DNA of 64,000 nt from Desulfolutivibrio sulfoxidireducens (GTDB lineage Bacteria; Desulfobacterota; Desulfovibrionia; Desulfovibrionales; Desulfovibrionaceae), in the NCBI RefSeq assembly GCF_013376475.1, contig NZ_CP045508.1, positions 496,001 through 560,000 on the forward strand, read 5' to 3'. Below are positions 28,633 to 44,164 of the stretch, piece after piece. Numbering within the stretch: the stretch's first letter is position 1; every line of letters begins with the position of its first letter. The notes beneath the pieces were generated by a model. That model was not told where the DNA came from and made no database searches. It saw only the letters and a program-made list of their open reading frames with translations. A program made the translations under genes and the position numbers.

Positions 28633-30546
28633 CTAGGTGTTTTTCAGATCGGCGTACCAGCCGCTGGCGTCGGTCAGCAGGGTGGTGACGCGGTCGACCA
28701 TCTGGTGGGGGTCGGCGAGGTAGCCGTCGAGGAGCAGGGCGGCGTCGAGGAGCTGGTTGGCGGCGGTGGCCAGGAAGGGGTCATCGGGCCGGGTCTGGTG
28801 GATGCGCAGCAGGTTGCGCAGCAGGGGGTGATCGGCGTTGATTTCCAGGACCTTGCGCGGCGGGGTTTCGTCCTTGGCGAGCATGCGCATGATTTTTTGC
28901 ATGCCGGCCGAGGGGTCGCCGTCGGGGCTGACCAGGCAGGAGGGGCTTTTGCGCAGTCGTGTGGACACGCGCACGTCGGTTATGCGGTCGCCGAGGAGGT
29001 TTTTGACGGCCGCGGCCAGGGAGGGCAGGGCGGCCTGTTGTTCCGGGGAGAGGGGGGGGGTGTCGGCGGCAACGGTGCTTTCGAAGGCGGCGAGGTCGGC
29101 CGGGTCGATCTTGTCGGCCGGGGCCAGGGTGAAGTCCTTGTAGGAACGCACGCTTTCCATGACGAATTCGTCGATGGGTTCGAGGAGGTAGAGGACCTCG
29201 AGGCCCTTGTCCCGGAAGATCTCCAGGTTGGGGCTTAGGTCCAGGGCGGCCCGGGAGGGGCCGGAGAGGTAGTGGATGTGTTTTTGTCCGGATTTGGCCC
29301 GGGTGACGTAGTCGGCCAGGGAGGTCAGGGGGGCGGGGGCTTCGGGCGTGGGGGCCAGGGCCGAGGATTCGAAGCGGACGAGTTCGGCGAAGGCCTCGCG
29401 GTGGATGTAGTCGCCGTAGCCCAGCTTCATGACCCGGCCGTGTTCGCGCCAGAAGGCGGCGTAGGCGTCGGGGTCGTCCTTGGCCAGCTTTTGCAGTCGT
29501 TCCAGGACCTGTTTGGTGATGGTGGACTGGATTTTGCGCAGGACCAGGTTCTCCTGGAGGGTTTCCCGGGAGAGGTTCAGCGGCAGGTCCTCGGTGTCCA
29601 CCACGCCGCGCACGAAGCCCAGAAACTCGGGCAGGAGATCCTTGGTTTCGTGCTGGATGAGCACCCGACGCACGTAGAGGTCGAGTCCCCGGGCATCGGG
29701 GCGCATGCCGAAGAGGTCCATGGGCTTTTTGGGGATGAAGAGCAGGGCGGTGAACTGGACCGGCGCGTCCACGGCCACGTGGATGGTCAGAAGCGGTTCC
29801 TCGGAGTCGAAGGTCAGAAATTCGTGGAATTCCTTGTACTGCTCGGGGGTGATGGAGAACTTGGACTCGCGCCACAGGGCCGGGACGGTGTTGACCTTGT
29901 CCTGGCCGACGAAAATGGGGAAGGAAATGAAGTTGGAGTGCTTGCGGATAATGGCCTTCAGGCGTTCCGGGTCGGCGAATTCCTTGGCCTCGTCCTTGAG
30001 GTGGATCTCGAGGCGGGTGCCGCGAGCGGCATCTTCGGGGCCGTCGGCCAGGTCGTAGGAGCCGGAGCCGTCGGATTCCCAGTGAACGGCGGGTTGGTCC
30101 GGGATCAGGGACTTGGTGGTCAGGACCACCTTTTTGGCCACCATGAACACGGAATAGAATCCGACGCCGAAGCGGCCGATGATGCCCGGGGCCGCGTCCT
30201 TGTTGTCGGCCAGGTTTTTCAGGAATTCGGCGGACCCGGACTTGGCGATGGTGCCGATGTTTTCGATGAGTTCGTCGCGGGTCATGCCCAGGCCGGTATC
30301 GGCGATGGTCAGGATGCCGGCGTCCTTGTCCGTGGTGATGCGAATTTCAAGCGGCAGATCCGGGTTGGCCGCGGTGGTGCCGCGTCCGGTCTCAAAACGC
30401 AGCTTGTCCAGGGCGTCGGAGGCGTTGGAGATGAGTTCGCGCAGGAAAATCTCGCGGTTGGTGTAGATGGAATGGGTGATGATATCGAGAAGTTGCCGTA
30501 TTTCGGCCTTGAATTCATGGGGTGTTCCCGGTTTCGTGTCCGGCAT
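28633..30546 (-). CDS. htpG: Chaperone HtpG (bacterial Hsp90)
   Basis: This 637-residue GHKL-ATPase chaperone has the N-terminal ATP site with ELISNASDALDKLRF, DTGLGMTRDELIENIGTIAKSG and the GRFGVGFYSVFMVA loop. The middle-domain segment FIPKKPMDLFG and GVVDTEDLPLNLSRE are also present. The length fits the family. A strong AAGGAG ribosome site precedes the ATG. Together with the two hsp20 genes at 31026-31818 it forms a heat-shock neighbourhood. Confidence 0.97.
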   Translation of the reverse strand: MPDTKPGTPHEFKAEIRQLLDIITHSIYTNREIFLRELISNASDALDKLRFETGRGTTAANPDLPLEIRITTDKDAGILTIADTGLGMTRDELIENIGTIAKSGSAEFLKNLADNKDAAPGIIGRFGVGFYSVFMVAKKVVLTTKSLIPDQPAVHWESDGSGSYDLADGPEDAARGTRLEIHLKDEAKEFADPERLKAIIRKHSNFISFPIFVGQDKVNTVPALWRESKFSITPEQYKEFHEFLTFDSEEPLLTIHVAVDAPVQFTALLFIPKKPMDLFGMRPDARGLDLYVRRVLIQHETKDLLPEFLGFVRGVVDTEDLPLNLSRETLQENLVLRKIQSTITKQVLERLQKLAKDDPDAYAAFWREHGRVMKLGYGDYIHREAFAELVRFESSALAPTPEAPAPLTSLADYVTRAKSGQKHIHYLSGPSRAALDLSPNLEIFRDKGLEVLYLLEPIDEFVMESVRSYKDFTLAPADKIDPADLAAFESTVAADTPPLSPEQQAALPSLAAAVKNLLGDRITDVRVSTRLRKSPSCLVSPDGDPSAGMQKIMRMLAKDETPPRKVLEINADHPLLRNLLRIHQTRPDDPFLATAANQLLDAALLLDGYLADPHQMVDRVTTLLTDASGWYADLKNT

Positions 30547-38865: not shown

Positions 38866-38873
38866 AAAAATTA
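38866..38873. repeat. Target-site duplication, left copy
   Basis: AAAAATTA directly precedes the left inverted repeat and matches 40215-40222 exactly. Eight bases is the known duplication size for ISL3-family elements. Confidence 0.95.
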
Positions 38874-40214
38874 GGTTCTTCTGGGAATTCCGGGAAGGAA
38901 AAGTGATTTGAGACAACGGTAACTCTCCGATATCTCGAAGGTTGCGAAGCCAAACGAGAGCAAAGGAGAGCACCGTTGTCCGGATCAGAGATTACCCGGC
39001 TTCTGGGCGGCTGGGAAGGATATCGTATCGGGACGGTCCAGCGTTTCGAGGCTGGCGAGAAAGGGCTGCAAGCCGAAGTCTGGATCGAGCTTTTGCCGCT
39101 CAAGCGAAGACGGATGCGTTGCAGCGGGTGCGGAAGACTCGTGAGCAAGGTCCACGATATCGAGGAGCGGTGGATTCGCGACCTGCCACTTCTGGACACG
39201 GCAACGTGGCTTCTGGTCTGGCGACGCAGGGTTCGTTGCCCGGATTGCGGGGCAAAGCTTGAGGAGTTGCCTTGGGTTGGGCGCTACTCGCGAGTGACCA
39301 AGCGCTTGGCCGAAAGCATCGGCAGGTTGTGCGAGGTGGCTTCCATCAAGCATGTGGCCTCGTTCTTCGGCATGAGTTGGTGGGCGGTCAAGGCCGTGGA
39401 CAAGCAATACCTTGCTGAAAAGCTCGGACCTGCGGACGTGAGCAACGTGAGTGCCATCGCCATGGACGAGTTCGCCATCCAGAAGGGGCATCGCTACGCC
39501 ACGGTGATCGTGGAGCCGTACATCAAACGCGTGCTCTGGGTCGGCCGGGGCCGAAGCCGCGAAAGCATCCGGCCGTTCTTTGAACTGCTTGGCCCGGAAG
39601 GTTGTCAAGCCATCAAAGCCGTGGCCATGGACATGAACGGCGCTTACGAGGCGGAGGTCCGGGCTTGGTGCCCCGATGCTGCAATCGTCTACGACCTGTT
39701 CCATGTGGTCATGAAGTACGGCCGCGAAGTCATCGATCCGGTCCGCCGCGCCGAAGCCAAACGTGCCGAGGGTGACAGGCAGGCATGCAAGGTGATCAAG
39801 GGCTCGCGCTGGCTACTGCTGCGAAACAAGCGAAACATCGAGAGCCAGGACGACAGGATCAGGCTCTATGATCTGCTCGAAGCCAACCGGAACTTGATGA
39901 AAGTCTATGTGCTCAAGGAGGATATGAAGCAGCTCTGGGACTTTCGCTACCCGAAAGCGGCTAAACGCTTCTGGAAGGACTGGTACCGACGGGCTATGCA
40001 AAGCGGGATCGAGCCGCTACGCCGCTTCGCCAAAAGACTCAAGCCCTACGTACCAGGCATCGTGGCCCACTGCCGCCATCGGCTGCACACCAGTCTCCTG
40101 GAAGGGATCAACAACAAGATCAAGGTGATCAAACGGATGGCTTACGGCTTCAGGGACGACGCCTACTTCTTCCTCAAAATCAGGGCTGCTTTTCCCGGAA
40201 TTCCGCGATGAACC
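38874..40214 (+). mobile_element. ISL3-family insertion sequence
   Basis: This element of 1341 bases has imperfect terminal inverted repeats of about 23 bases. The left end reads GGTTCTTCTGGGAATTCCGG (38874 on) and the right end, reverse complemented, GGTTCATCGCGGAATTCCGG (ending at 40214). It carries one transposase gene and is flanked by perfect 8-base AAAAATTA duplications. The intact ends, intact transposase and clean duplications imply a recent insertion. Confidence 0.95.
38976..40211 (+). CDS. ISL3-family transposase
   Basis: This 411-residue protein has an N-terminal zinc-finger-like domain (RCSGCGRL near residue 49, RCPDCGAKL near residue 87). An HTH segment (ASIKHVASFFGMSWWAVKAV) follows. 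The catalytic DDE domain shows VSAIAMDEFAIQKGHRYATV (first Asp), AVAMDMNGAYEAEV (second) and LLEGINNKIKVIKRMAYGFR (the Glu). The start is a TTG with AAGGAGAG before it. The stop lies inside the right inverted repeat. It appears intact. Confidence 0.95.
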   Translation: MSGSEITRLLGGWEGYRIGTVQRFEAGEKGLQAEVWIELLPLKRRRMRCSGCGRLVSKVHDIEERWIRDLPLLDTATWLLVWRRRVRCPDCGAKLEELPWVGRYSRVTKRLAESIGRLCEVASIKHVASFFGMSWWAVKAVDKQYLAEKLGPADVSNVSAIAMDEFAIQKGHRYATVIVEPYIKRVLWVGRGRSRESIRPFFELLGPEGCQAIKAVAMDMNGAYEAEVRAWCPDAAIVYDLFHVVMKYGREVIDPVRRAEAKRAEGDRQACKVIKGSRWLLLRNKRNIESQDDRIRLYDLLEANRNLMKVYVLKEDMKQLWDFRYPKAAKRFWKDWYRRAMQSGIEPLRRFAKRLKPYVPGIVAHCRHRLHTSLLEGINNKIKVIKRMAYGFRDDAYFFLKIRAAFPGIPR

Positions 40215-40222
40215 AAAAATTA
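40215..40222. repeat. Target-site duplication, right copy
   Basis: AAAAATTA follows the right inverted repeat and is identical to 38866-38873. Confidence 0.95.
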
Positions 40223-40546: not shown

Positions 40547-41884
40547 ATGCCTCACAAGTTTGGTTTCTTTTCACCTAAACGATCCAAAGATGAAGCGAAT
40601 AGCTCCTTGGCTTTATTCCCTTATTACGCTGGCTTTTCACAGCGGTTTGTATCATCTGTCTTGTCGTCTTTTAACTTTGACAGAAACGCCATAGTATGCG
40701 ACCCGTGGAATGGAAGCGGAACAACTACTACCGAATCTTTTAAAAATGGCTTTCAAGTCATGGGATTTGATTTGAATCCAGCAATGGTTGTAATTTCGAA
40801 GGCGCGTCTCTTGAGTTGCAATGAAGCTGGAAGTTTAATTCCAATTGCTCATGATATTTCTGAAAAAGTCAAACAACTTCAGGGAGACTTTACCTTTTCC
40901 GAAGATCCTTTACTCGATTGGATGGCTCCAAATAGTGTCAATTGTGTGCGTAAAATAGAATACGTAATTCAAAAATTGTTGGTTGATGAAAAGCAATTTG
41001 TTCCGATGCGCGAAAGGGGGCGATATTCTGAGTTGTCAACACTAGCTTCATTTTTTTATGTGGCTTTGTTTAGATCTGTTCGTCTATTTATGAGCAAATG
41101 TTTGTCTTCAAATCCAACATGGTTTAAAAAGCCAAGGTCAAAGCTCAATCGGATGCGTCCTGATTTTGATTTAATTAACAGAGTTTTTGCAGAGGAATTA
41201 TTTAAAATAATAAAAGTATTAAATGACATGTCGCGCAAGGAAAATAGCCATACGTGCTATGCAAATATTGATGTTGCATCTTCACTGTCGCTACCAGTCA
41301 AAGACAGTCAAATTAATTTTGTCATCTCGTCTCCGCCCTATTGTACTCGGATAGATTACGCGGTTGCTACACTTCCAGAACTATGCGTTTTAGGTTATTC
41401 CAACAGCTCGTTTGAAAAGTTGAGAAGAAGTCTGATCGGAAGTACTTTGACAGATGTTAATCGATCTGTGGAAATAGGATGTTTAGGATCTGAGTGTATG
41501 AACTTTTTAGAAAAAGTTAAAAGTCATAATTCAAAGGCTTCAGGATCATACTACTTTAGAATGCACATCCAATATTTTAATTCAATTTATAAATCTCTTG
41601 TGGAGTTGAGACGAGCTATCGTTCCTGGTGGTAAATGCGTTCTGGTTGTGCAGGACTCTTATTATAAAGACATCCATAACAATCTGCCAAACATTATTAT
41701 TGATATGGCAACCAATAACGAATTTAATTTGGAAGAAAAATTTGATTTTATGTCAACCAGAAGTATGGCTTCAATAAATAATGCAACGAAGAATTACCGA
41801 AAGAAAATTAATTCTGTTGAAAGCGTTCTTGTTTTTTGTTCTCAGAAAAAAATTGACGTCAAAAAAGACACCGTATTGAACTAG
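40547..41884 (+). CDS. DNA methyltransferase (N4-cytosine/N6-adenine type), AT-rich island
   Basis: This 445-residue protein has SAM motif I as DPWNGSGTTTT at residues 52-62 and catalytic motif IV as SSPPYCTRIDY near 261-271. The GSGTT form of motif I resembles that of N4C/N6A methylases. About 200 residues with no clear motif separate the two and may hold the target-recognition region. A late block RRAIVPGGKCVLVVQDSYYK is typical of the fold's later strands. The ATG at 40547 has only a weak ribosome site; a TTG 18 codons earlier is possible. Codon use is AT-rich, unlike the flanking genome. It is followed by DUF262 and HEPN genes, suggesting a self-marking role in a defence module. Confidence 0.8.
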   Translation: MPHKFGFFSPKRSKDEANSSLALFPYYAGFSQRFVSSVLSSFNFDRNAIVCDPWNGSGTTTTESFKNGFQVMGFDLNPAMVVISKARLLSCNEAGSLIPIAHDISEKVKQLQGDFTFSEDPLLDWMAPNSVNCVRKIEYVIQKLLVDEKQFVPMRERGRYSELSTLASFFYVALFRSVRLFMSKCLSSNPTWFKKPRSKLNRMRPDFDLINRVFAEELFKIIKVLNDMSRKENSHTCYANIDVASSLSLPVKDSQINFVISSPPYCTRIDYAVATLPELCVLGYSNSSFEKLRRSLIGSTLTDVNRSVEIGCLGSECMNFLEKVKSHNSKASGSYYFRMHIQYFNSIYKSLVELRRAIVPGGKCVLVVQDSYYKDIHNNLPNIIIDMATNNEFNLEEKFDFMSTRSMASINNATKNYRKKINSVESVLVFCSQKKIDVKKDTVLN

Positions 41885-41967
41885 GTTTTAATGTATTATT
41901 GTAAAGCATAATATTTTTTAGTGTGTCTTGAATGATTATGCAATCCGTGAGGTGGGAAGGGGGGGGG

Positions 41968-43128
41968 ATGGGTAGCAAAATGCCAGAGAAAGAGAAAATC
42001 GACTTGATAGAGATTATTGACTCAAGGCTTAAGAGTGTTCACACACAAAGTCTTGATATATCATTCAATGAACTTCTTGATATGTATTTGTCTGGGGAGT
42101 TAGATATTTCCCCAGATTATCAAAGGCTATTTCAGTGGTCAGAAGGAGCAAGATCTCGATTTGTTGAATCGCTTTTACTTGAGATGCCGATTCCGCCGAT
42201 ATTTGTCATTGAGGAGGATGGAGGACGTTATTCATTGATCGATGGCCTCCAACGCATTTCTGCATATTTACACTTCAGAGGGAAACTTAAAGCGACACAT
42301 CTTGATCCGCCTGTTAAAGTTGGCGACATGCTTAAATTATGTGATTGTGACATTATACAAGAATTTAATGGGCTTACTTTTGATGACCTTCCTACTGCCT
42401 TGCAAATTCGCCTGAAAAGATCATTTATCAGAGTCGAGGTAGTTCGACGAGGAAGTGACCCACATTTCAAATACCATATGTTCAAGAGACTTAATACCGG
42501 AGGAGAGCTTCTTTCGGAACAACAAATTAGGAATTGCACCATAAGGCTTCTGAATAGCAAATTTAATGATTTTATCATCGAGCTTAGTAGGTCAAAAAGC
42601 TTTATAAATTGCACAGAAATGATTGGCGTCCAGAGGAAGCTAATTGCGTTTGACCAAGAGTTAGTTCTTCGTTTTTTTGCATTAAAGAATAATCTGAAAA
42701 ATTTCAAACATGATGTTGCTGATTTTTTAACAGATTTTATGGAGCAGGTTTCTGATCCTAATGGTGGATATATTTTTGATTATGAGCAGGAAAAGAAACT
42801 TTTTAATAAAACTTTTTTGCTTTTTGAAAAAACACTTGCAGAGCGTTCATTTAGTCTTCCAAGCAAGAATCGCAAAACCCTGACAAAGGGTTTTGGCATA
42901 TATCATTATGAGGCATTTACTTTGGGAGTGCAACCATTTATCGAAAAGATCAACATTGTTAACCATGCTGAGATAAAAAAGCTAAAAGATATTTTTTTGG
43001 AGATTAAATGTGATCAGCTATTTATTAATTTGACGACAGGTGGTGGAAAAAATTCTCCGGGTCCATTAAATTCACGTATTAATTTTGTTACAAAAAAATT
43101 AATCGAACATGGATATTCTCGAGATTAG
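41968..43128 (+). CDS. DUF262-domain protein (GmrSD/ParB-like nuclease fold)
   Basis: This protein of about 386 residues has a DUF262 N-terminal domain: LDISPDYQRLFQWSEGARSR, then the nucleotide/nuclease-type motif SLIDGLQRISAYLHF (the DGQQR motif, with Leu for the first Gln). FKRLNTGGELLSEQQIRNC follows near residue 190. DUF262 proteins such as GmrS and SspE couple NTP use to cleavage of foreign or modified DNA. The C-terminal half is helical and unassigned, without a visible HNH motif. The start is uncertain between 41932, 41968 and 41980; 41968 has the G-rich ribosome site. It overlaps the HEPN gene by 20 bases. Confidence 0.82.
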   Translation: MGSKMPEKEKIDLIEIIDSRLKSVHTQSLDISFNELLDMYLSGELDISPDYQRLFQWSEGARSRFVESLLLEMPIPPIFVIEEDGGRYSLIDGLQRISAYLHFRGKLKATHLDPPVKVGDMLKLCDCDIIQEFNGLTFDDLPTALQIRLKRSFIRVEVVRRGSDPHFKYHMFKRLNTGGELLSEQQIRNCTIRLLNSKFNDFIIELSRSKSFINCTEMIGVQRKLIAFDQELVLRFFALKNNLKNFKHDVADFLTDFMEQVSDPNGGYIFDYEQEKKLFNKTFLLFEKTLAERSFSLPSKNRKTLTKGFGIYHYEAFTLGVQPFIEKINIVNHAEIKKLKDIFLEIKCDQLFINLTTGGGKNSPGPLNSRINFVTKKLIEHGYSRD

Positions 43129-43834
43129 GGCTCAACTTGAGTCAAACCAGGCTTGGCGGAGGGAAGAAATTCTTTTCTTCCAAAATCATGCTGCTAAACT
43201 TTCCTCAAAGGAGGAAACGGAGAAATTTTACCGTGCGGTAGTTCTTTTACTCTATGCTCATTTTGAGGGATATTGTAAATTTTCTTTTGCTTTATATATA
43301 GATACCATCAACAAATTAAGCATTAATTTTTCAGAAGCGAACTATTGCATAGCAGCGATTTCACTTTCAAAACTTTTTAAAGCACTACGTTACCCAAATT
43401 CAAAATGCAAAGAATTTAGAAATATACTCCCTGATGATTCAAAATTGCATCTTTTTGCCCGTAATAAAGAATTTGTTGAAAATTATCAGGAATTATGCAC
43501 AGGATTGATATCGATACCTGAAAATGCTATTGACTTAGAGTCAAACATCAATCCAAGTGTTCTTCGCAAAGCTCTTTTTCAATTAGGCTTTCCCTATGAC
43601 GCATTTGTTGAATTTGAAGGAAAAATAGATTATTTGCTTCAAATTCGCAATAAAATTGCTCACGGACAAGAAAGGTCAGGAATTTCTTCTAAGCGATATT
43701 TTGACTTGAGAGACTCAATTTTTAAAATTATGGATGAAATTACTTTATTTGTTACCAAATCGTTAAAAAATAAAAATTACTTAAACGATGAGACTTGCAA
43801 AAAGGGAAAAAGTATTGAAGAAGAAACAGCTTGA
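43109..43834 (+). CDS. MAE_28990/MAE_18760-like HEPN nuclease
   Basis: This 241-residue helical protein has the family's early YRAVVLLLYAHFEGYCKFSF block (residues 41-60). The HEPN catalytic Rx4H appears as R180-NKIA-H185 followed by Gly. HEPN proteins of this type are predicted RNases in toxin-antitoxin and phage-defence loci and are known companions of DUF262 proteins. Its start lies inside the DUF262 gene, implying coupled translation and a fixed ratio. The gene is AT-rich like its two neighbours. The RNase role is inferred from the motif. Confidence 0.82.
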   Translation: MDILEIRAQLESNQAWRREEILFFQNHAAKLSSKEETEKFYRAVVLLLYAHFEGYCKFSFALYIDTINKLSINFSEANYCIAAISLSKLFKALRYPNSKCKEFRNILPDDSKLHLFARNKEFVENYQELCTGLISIPENAIDLESNINPSVLRKALFQLGFPYDAFVEFEGKIDYLLQIRNKIAHGQERSGISSKRYFDLRDSIFKIMDEITLFVTKSLKNKNYLNDETCKKGKSIEEETA

Positions 43835-44089
43835 AATCAAGACTCATCTTAGAACCATTGAGTTTCTGATTGCTCTTCTTTATATCTAAATAAAGTCAAA
43901 TATTTCAAATTGTTAACTTTATTATATTGAAATAGTAGTATTTTCTGCCTCCCTGCCCAAAATCTCACTTCATGATCTCCAGCCAACTTCGCCAACACGC
44001 GCCAACACAAAAAATTTCCTCTTTCTCCCCGGGCCAATCTTGACTTCCCCACTAGTTTGGGGCAAGAAACCCATTCCCGTTTGGCTTTT
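43835..44089. other. Border between the AT-rich island and core DNA
   Basis: The AT-rich composition continues to about 43960 and then gives way to GC-rich sequence. A short direct repeat CGCCAACA occurs twice near 43990-44007. No gene is supported. A possible -35 box TTGACT (44040-44045) precedes the tRNA, but no good -10 box was found. Confidence 0.4.
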
Positions 44090-44164
44090 AGGACCGTAGC
44101 TCAGGGGGAGAGCGCTTGCTTGACACGCAAGAGGTCAGGAGTTCAAATCTCCTCGGTCCTACCA
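44090..44164 (+). tRNA. tRNA-Val (GAC)
   Basis: A 75-base cloverleaf with CCA encoded. The acceptor stem pairs AGGACCG with CGGTCCT. The anticodon stem CTTGC/GCAAG encloses loop TTGACAC (anticodon GAC, reading GUC). The T arm AGGAG/CTCCT encloses TTCAAAT. It sits 90 bases upstream of thrS. Confidence 0.96.

Follow-up and report, generated by a model that had tools for sequence, protein, structure and literature searches.

A stretch of 64,000 nucleotides from Desulfolutivibrio sulfoxidireducens (the window, numbered from its first letter; positions 496,001 to 560,000 of contig NZ_CP045508.1) carries three collinear genes coding for a DNA methyltransferase, a DUF262 (GmrSD_N) protein and a HEPN protein, together called the trio below (Table 1). 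The first-pass annotation, made from the sequence letters, had described them as AT-rich genes in a GC-rich chromosome, with the last two overlapping by 20 bases. The open reading frame (ORF) coordinates and the GC content confirmed this description. The methylase and DUF262 genes are separated by 47 bases, the DUF262 and HEPN genes share the 20 bases, and the trio has a GC content of 35.4% compared with 62.6% in the flanks. The composition had also suggested horizontal gain, which we consider likely. Chance ORFs or a cluster of pseudogenes were ruled out, as 3 of 3 frames are open, the motifs are conserved and homologous trios exist elsewhere. Pfam upheld the family assignments of all three proteins above its curated cut-offs. 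Every motif quoted in the annotation was located, namely DPWNGSGTT and SSPPY in the methylase, DGLQR and RLNTGG in the DUF262 protein, and R180-N-K-I-A-H185 in the HEPN protein.

Table 1. Coordinates of the trio, of features around it and of R-x4-H partners at other loci (positions refer to the window unless a locus is named; aa, amino acids)
Feature	Position	Strand	Details
DNA methyltransferase gene	40547-41884	+	445 aa; ORF call, Pfam, PADLOC
DUF262 / GmrSD_N gene	41932-43128	+	ORF call, Pfam, PADLOC; probable true start 41968
G9 run	41959-41967	+	directly 5' of the conserved DUF262 start codon; sequence and run search
HEPN gene	43109-43834	+	241 aa; ORF call, Pfam
ISL3-family insertion sequence	38871-40217		upstream of the trio; transposase 38976-40211
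Right junction of the variable slot	43982-44089	.	just 5' of tRNA-Val; blastn to L055, L056
tRNA-Val	44090-44164		downstream of the trio
216-277 aa R-x4-H partners	L034 5944-6594; L035 8327-8977; L039 8036-8869; L041 8200-8865; L046 4414-5064		

A methylase, a ParB-fold protein and a predicted RNase

Judged by its sequence, the first gene product is an N4/N6-type DNA methyltransferase. Pfam assigned it to N6_N4_Mtase (4e-9), and PADLOC matched it to Type II methylase profiles (MTase_II, 6e-20); among the 25 of 34 PADLOC matches listed, there was no Nsn match in this protein. Motif I (residue 52) precedes the catalytic motif (about residue 262), and the C-terminal segment of beta-class methylases in the PDB matches the N-terminal segment of the window methylase. 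SPPY is kept in all 43 members of the methylase family, 40 of which also show the motif I pattern. A methyltransferase with intact motifs is a feature that the window shares with Type II restriction-modification (R-M) systems. An ordinary Type II system is disfavoured, since ORFs and Pfam gave no recognised endonuclease gene in the island; in PADLOC, however, the DUF262 protein did match a REase_II profile weakly (1e-7).

The second protein matched GmrSD_N in Pfam (3e-21). Its best PADLOC match was NsnA (3e-56), and it also matched PD-T4-2_A (1.1e-39). The Nsn names presumably denote Menshen proteins. The link to DUF262/HEPN defence that the annotation had drawn is supported. NCBIfam matched neither the DUF262 nor the HEPN protein at E<=1. 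The DGLQR motif is present in all 17 trio DUF262 members examined. The predicted model (predicted local distance difference test, pLDDT, 88.9; predicted template modelling score, pTM, 0.78; 22 sequences) combines a ParB/Srx portion with a helical portion at the C-terminus. Comparing this model with known structures, we found BrxU at Z 8.8 over 299 residues, SspE at Z 7.4 and CTP- or CDP-bound ParB proteins at Z 6.5 and less. The BrxU alignment covers residues 1-420 of the 580-residue chain only, and its root-mean-square deviation of 12.1 is high, so the domains are placed differently. Foldseek against the PDB also gave BrxU as the best match (E 8.5e-3), and the sequence profile retrieved zero PDB chains at E<=0.1. 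The DUF262 protein is probably a sensor or switch dependent on nucleoside triphosphate (NTP), with a ParB-Srx fold.

The annotation had proposed that this protein detects or cuts unmarked DNA. We retain detection as a proposal; cutting is weakened, as Pfam found no known nuclease domain in the protein and the alignment stops at BrxU residue 420. A GmrSD-like DNase within DUF262 was rejected for the same reason, together with the lack of any DUF1524 match in Pfam at E<=1 in the three window proteins. As the model has no match to the C-terminal part of BrxU, HEPN is the only recognised nuclease of the trio. One may still picture the DUF262 protein as a DNA-nicking enzyme that restricts unmethylated DNA, with HEPN as a second line. 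The label 'ParB nuclease' in a published table (Anantharaman et al. 2013, PMC3710099) and the weak REase_II match would fit such an enzyme, while the Pfam result and the partial coverage of BrxU make it improbable.

The family alignment places the start of the DUF262 protein at 41968, not 41932, with M13 aligning to the first residue of its relatives. The run of nine G residues (G9) stands directly before this codon. Of 3000 sequences simulated for the island with a first-order Markov model, 1 contained a run of G9 or C9. A second G9 lies in the window at 29052, and G9 followed by ATG occurs twice in the whole genome, compared with one match for the reversed control. The run is a possible expression switch, and it could make the sensor phase-variable. 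The same genome holds a second GmrSD_N protein distant from the trio (G000:C1:2428221-2428760, L094).

The third protein matched HEPN_RiboL-PSP (1e-29) and HEPN_MAE_28990 (4e-29) in Pfam, and PADLOC gave zero matches. Its R180-x4-H185 fits the HEPN RNase pattern R-x4-6-H. This motif is kept in 16 of the 17 trio HEPN proteins; the remaining one, L010, is truncated where its contig ends. In the structure comparison of the predicted model (pLDDT 93.0, pTM 0.87, 21 sequences), five of the six best matches were chains of the MntA-HepT toxin and of Csm6 (Z 9.4 to 8.7), MntA-HepT aligning at Z 9.4 over 125 residues at 3.5 Å. Two designed filaments rank among these HEPN chains (Z 9.1 and 8.5). Because a designed helical filament scores 9.1, the HEPN fold match is weak when taken alone, and the family call rests on Pfam. 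Foldseek found no significant match to this model in the PDB (best E 0.44), and the sequence profile returned a CRISPR-associated protein at E 0.061 and quinolinate synthase at E 0.81. By family and motif, the HEPN protein is a probable endoRNase effector.

Recurrence of the trio and exchange of its partners

The annotation had proposed, beforehand, to judge the trio by its co-occurrence in other genomes. We find that it recurs in the same order in five phyla, namely Pseudomonadota, Thermodesulfobacteriota, Bacteroidota, Actinomycetota and Acidobacteriota, the records from Thermodesulfobacteriota and Acidobacteriota being one contig each of a metagenome-assembled genome (MAG). A methylase-anchored genome scan by two short peptide patterns, which is not exhaustive, gave 35 loci that were classed by blast, profile search and Pfam. 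DUF262 adjoins the methylase in 20 of the 35. Ten loci are close trios (L010, L012, L016, L026, L031, L032, L033, L036, L037 and L040). Four (L011, L013, L014, L038) carry a different DUF262 and HEPN pair in another order or orientation, four (L034, L035, L039, L041) a divergent DUF262 with a 216-277 aa R-x4-H protein, and one (L019) DUF262 with a SIR2-like protein. In L029, HEPN is lost: a transposase stands in its place, DUF262 is shortened and the methylase frame is open, as expected if the methylase protects. The methylase is cut or truncated in 3 of the 35 loci.

Viral contigs gave five methylase-anchored loci. The trio is found in two of them (identical), L046 has a divergent DUF262, L045 a DndB-like protein, and L047 is cut. 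When viral contigs were anchored on DUF262, the trio appeared in the same order in 9/10 loci (7/8 after merging identical or 99% identical ones), and L066 holds the DUF262-HEPN pair alone. Plasmid records with a DUF262 protein of at least 60% identity had the trio in 3/3 cases, all from Roseomonas mucosa and in the same order, with identities to the window of 60.9% for DUF262, 37% for the methylase and 38% for HEPN; in one of the three (L004), the methylase is frameshifted. The occurrence of trios or pairs on plasmids, viral contigs and a P2-like phage, and a pair (L083) adjoining an integrase and a relaxase gene, would suit an addiction module. Here, DUF262-HEPN would be the toxin side and methylation the antidote, and gene loss would kill daughter cells and thereby maintain the mobile element. 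The same placements are compatible with defence too; the window copy is chromosomal, and none of the three ORFs in its 3.7 kb island codes for an integrase or a replication protein. We hold addiction to be less probable even than a nicking DUF262 protein, and we favour defence.

The three genes have diverged together. Over 17 trio loci, the Mantel r was 0.84 for methylase and DUF262, 0.76 for methylase and HEPN, and 0.82 for DUF262 and HEPN, with 0 of 2000 permutations reaching each value. This set omits L029 and L065, besides the rows dropped from the methylase tree. The tree has 43 rows and omits L004 (frameshift), L032 (the same as L003), L042-L044 (cut), L066 (no methylase) and the duplicates L049 and L060-L062. 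The GC content of the trio is below that of its flanks in 17 of 17 loci, the L010 flank being only 536 bases long.

On the methylase tree, the trio label has to change 9 times, and 4 of these changes are forced by well supported branches. L011 and L012 have sister methylases (support 100/93) and yet DUF262-HEPN pairs that differ in lineage and order. One methylase family joins several DUF262-effector pairs, with a Pfam-recognised HEPN in L011, L013, L014 and L038 and the SIR2-like protein in L019 (SIR2 2e-6 in PADLOC; 0.003 in Pfam, below the cut-off). Locus L019 (5938-9615, from a Deltaproteobacteria/Myxococcota MAG) has the methylase, the SIR2-like protein and DUF262 in a row, SIR2 apparently taking the place of HEPN. 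The 216-277 aa partners carry R-x4-H. Pfam gave nothing in the four scanned (L034, L035, L041, L046), and against the HEPN alignment a profile comparison reached a probability of 0.3 of 100; we left the five partners of Table 1 unclassified rather than counting them as HEPN proteins.

We also searched a phylum sample of 395 genomes for HEPN. PF18737 matched in 12 genomes (E<=1e-4), above the family cut-off in 10. Besides the window's own, 11 HEPN proteins were obtained; DUF262 adjoins nine of them, L090 and L093 being without it. A methylase lies within 0.9 kb of 4 of the 9 pairs (L085, L086, L087, L089). It was not found beside the other five (L083, L084, L088, L091, L092), where L088 and L091 are near contig ends and the neighbours of L088 were checked by ORF reading and the trio methylase profile only. 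The methylases beside pairs are of N4/N6 type in three loci, L085, L086 and L089, the first of which also has an XhoI-type endonuclease, and of C5 type in L087, directly upstream, and in L067, a Klebsiella plasmid. In L009 (Paraburkholderia), an annotated methylase lies two genes upstream of the pair. In summary, the methylase, the ParB-fold protein and mostly HEPN are kept together while each is exchangeable.

Proposed action of the trio and its alternatives

We propose that the trio is a mobile, R-M-like defence module whose killing arm is an RNase, not a DNase, and we regard this proposal as about equally apt to be right or wrong. The methyltransferase would mark a motif in the host DNA, and the ParB-fold DUF262 protein would bind nucleotide and inspect DNA. 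On encountering DNA without the mark, as in an incoming phage or plasmid, DUF262 would release or activate HEPN, whose R-x4-H site would then cut RNA, and growth would halt. We infer here methylation as the signal, its absence as the trigger, nucleotide binding, the contact between DUF262 and HEPN, the RNA target and the phage as enemy. DUF262 is cast as the reader by analogy with the roles described for it in GmrSD, BrxU and SspE in a passage of PMC10952713. If the proposal is true, DNA methylation status would directly gate an RNA-cutting growth arrest in a system devoid of any enzyme that cuts DNA. The proposal would also supply a testable input signal for DUF262-HEPN systems such as PD-T4-2, and it would explain why DUF262-HEPN pairs are repeatedly placed beside unrelated methylases. 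Natural swaps, L011 versus L012 for example, already offer a way to learn which component recognises the mark.

The association of these genes has a precedent. The MAE_28990 HEPN is listed 'in operon with a ParB nuclease and DNA methylase genes' (Anantharaman et al. 2013, Table 1, PMC3710099). The window belongs with this class, having a MAE_28990 HEPN gene that adjoins a ParB-fold gene and a DNA methylase. The annotation had not known the trio as a named, tested system. The association itself was already listed in 2013, in a table row that gives for the trio neither a gene order nor a tested function and mentions neither exchange of partners nor another effector. A tested methylase-DUF262-HEPN trio was not found in the PMC literature, whose coverage excludes most subscription papers and bioRxiv preprints, and to that extent the earlier statement stands.

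Among tested systems, deleting PD-T4-2 from its native strain raised T4 plaquing far, as stated in a passage of Vassallo et al. 2022 (PMC9519451). PD-T4-2 contains DUF262 and a PF18735 HEPN, according to an excerpt of PMC10952713. The window DUF262 protein shares the PD-T4-2_A match with this experimentally anti-T4 system, whereas the two PADLOC components of PD-T4-2 include no methylase and the window HEPN did not match the PD-T4-2_B profile at E<=1. Run on four neighbouring HEPN proteins, whose sources were E. coli, Klebsiella and a P2-like phage, this profile hit L069 only, weakly (4e-4). With the 2013 listing and the PD-T4-2 precedent, the trio is therefore not categorically new. Menshen, from which the best PADLOC match of the window DUF262 comes, pairs DUF262 with a predicted OLD nuclease (excerpt of PMC10952713). 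However, no OLD nuclease is present among the three window genes, and no other Nsn protein appeared beside the NsnA match among the PADLOC matches listed. GmrSD, BrxU and SspE have the ParB-fold NTPase part of DUF262 in common with the window, as the alignments of the model to BrxU and to SspE show; the DUF1524 nuclease domain of GmrSD and BrxU is without a counterpart in the window, which has HEPN and the methylase instead.

Several observations weigh against the proposal. DUF262 was unmatched in 12 of the 35 methylase loci (by DUF262 profile, with Pfam on some neighbours only). A methylase was not found beside the pairs of L006, L008, L066, L068, L069, L083 (G001) and L084 (G316), where the gene tables of the plasmids are incomplete and the neighbours of L066 were tested by the trio methylase profile only; such pairs are common, which implies that DUF262-HEPN can function with no methylase of its own. 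On the Roseomonas mucosa TT14 plasmid (L004, 5974-7277), the methylase is frameshifted while DUF262 and HEPN are intact. Unless the frameshift stems from an error in sequencing, the simplest model predicts toxicity here, and the plasmid is then a natural test of the need for the methylase. Of the three proteins, DUF262 is the most strongly conserved (mean pairwise identity 0.55 versus 0.37 and 0.35 for the other two), which is odd if it and the methylase recognise one and the same variable motif. Shared descent of the hosts could yield part of the agreement between the gene trees. Finally, HEPN matched in 2 of 59 close-relative genomes, the window's own and G001. In G001, the DUF262-HEPN pair belongs to a different lineage, and the window methylase has no match there.

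The main rival is release of a PrrC-like guard. PrrC with the EcoprrI type I R-M system couples a HEPN RNase to DNA modification, as in the window, although the ABC-ATPase and the Hsd subunit are absent among the three window genes by Pfam. In such a scheme, a complex of methylase and DUF262 would restrain HEPN, and phage inhibition or destruction of the complex (anti-restriction, DNA mimic, DNA damage) would free it. The scheme was proposed by PrrC analogy for R-M-linked HEPN genes (Anantharaman et al. 2013, PMC3710099 section 10). It agrees with L085, where the DUF262-HEPN pair comes directly before an XhoI-type R-M pair, and with L007 (Psychrobacter), where an annotated R-M pair lies beside the DUF262-HEPN pair. 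The window trio, however, has no recognised restriction enzyme to guard, and pairs exist with no methylase found nearby. We rate a PrrC-like guard as unlikely, though ahead of the other alternatives. The same pairs would be at home with a Type IV-like sensor, in which a foreign DNA modification triggers DUF262 and the methylase is separate and merely linked. The DUF262 proteins of GmrSD, BrxU and SspE do respond to modified DNA (passage of PMC10952713). Yet the methylase linkage is held in five phyla, and also with unrelated methylases, and we place this alternative last in probability. Methylation as the host's own mark stays our preferred reading.

More tentatively, and with more doubt than the module itself, the trio may belong to a modular superfamily of 'restriction without a restriction enzyme', in which swappable methylases mark, nuclease-free ParB-fold proteins read and swappable effectors act at the level of the cell. 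The readers could be DUF262 and perhaps DndB-like DGQHR proteins, and the effectors HEPN RNases, SIR2-like proteins and the unclassified R-x4-H protein; we hold this wider membership just as tentatively.

Chromosomal slot and further methylase loci

Upstream of the trio, the ISL3-family element has inverted ends at 38871-38896 and 40192-40217, with an identical eight bases flanking it on both sides. The element splits a short stretch with an 88-aa ORF that has no Pfam match. An uninterrupted copy of this stretch, 80-84% identical, is present in the congeneric genome G002 (L055 2-269). Downstream, beyond tRNA-Val, come a 647-aa ORF that reads as thrS and, after it, infC, rpmI, rplT, pheS and pheT, these names being read off the translations. 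The annotation had mentioned neither the insertion sequence nor the tRNA gene. Similarity to both congeneric genomes starts at 43982 and continues through tRNA-Val into thrS at 88-89%. The slot of G002 contains a pair of 178-aa and 790-aa genes (L055 7411-10328), for which PADLOC gave no match and Pfam only a sub-threshold NPHP3_N; this pair is a candidate unknown defence pair. The slot of G001 holds an unrelated ORF, with about 1 kb visible before the contig end. Since the contents beside tRNA-Val and thrS differ among the window, G002 and G001, the trio sits in a variable slot, as seen in three congeneric genomes.

Two further settings of the methylase family were observed. On the viral contig L045 (4502-9173), the same methylase is flanked by a DndB/DGQHR-domain protein on one side and by a phage terminase on the other, which would make L045 part of a phage or prophage equipped with the enzyme that sets the mark. 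In L020-L025, L027, L028 and L030, the family stands beside a block of genes of about 279, 368, 510 and 450 aa by ORF size. In L021 (4696-12157), an Xre-RES pair lies upstream of this block, the first three genes are without a Pfam match and the last codes for a helicase resembling the PLuB model. The block beside the methylase is possibly an undescribed defence system.

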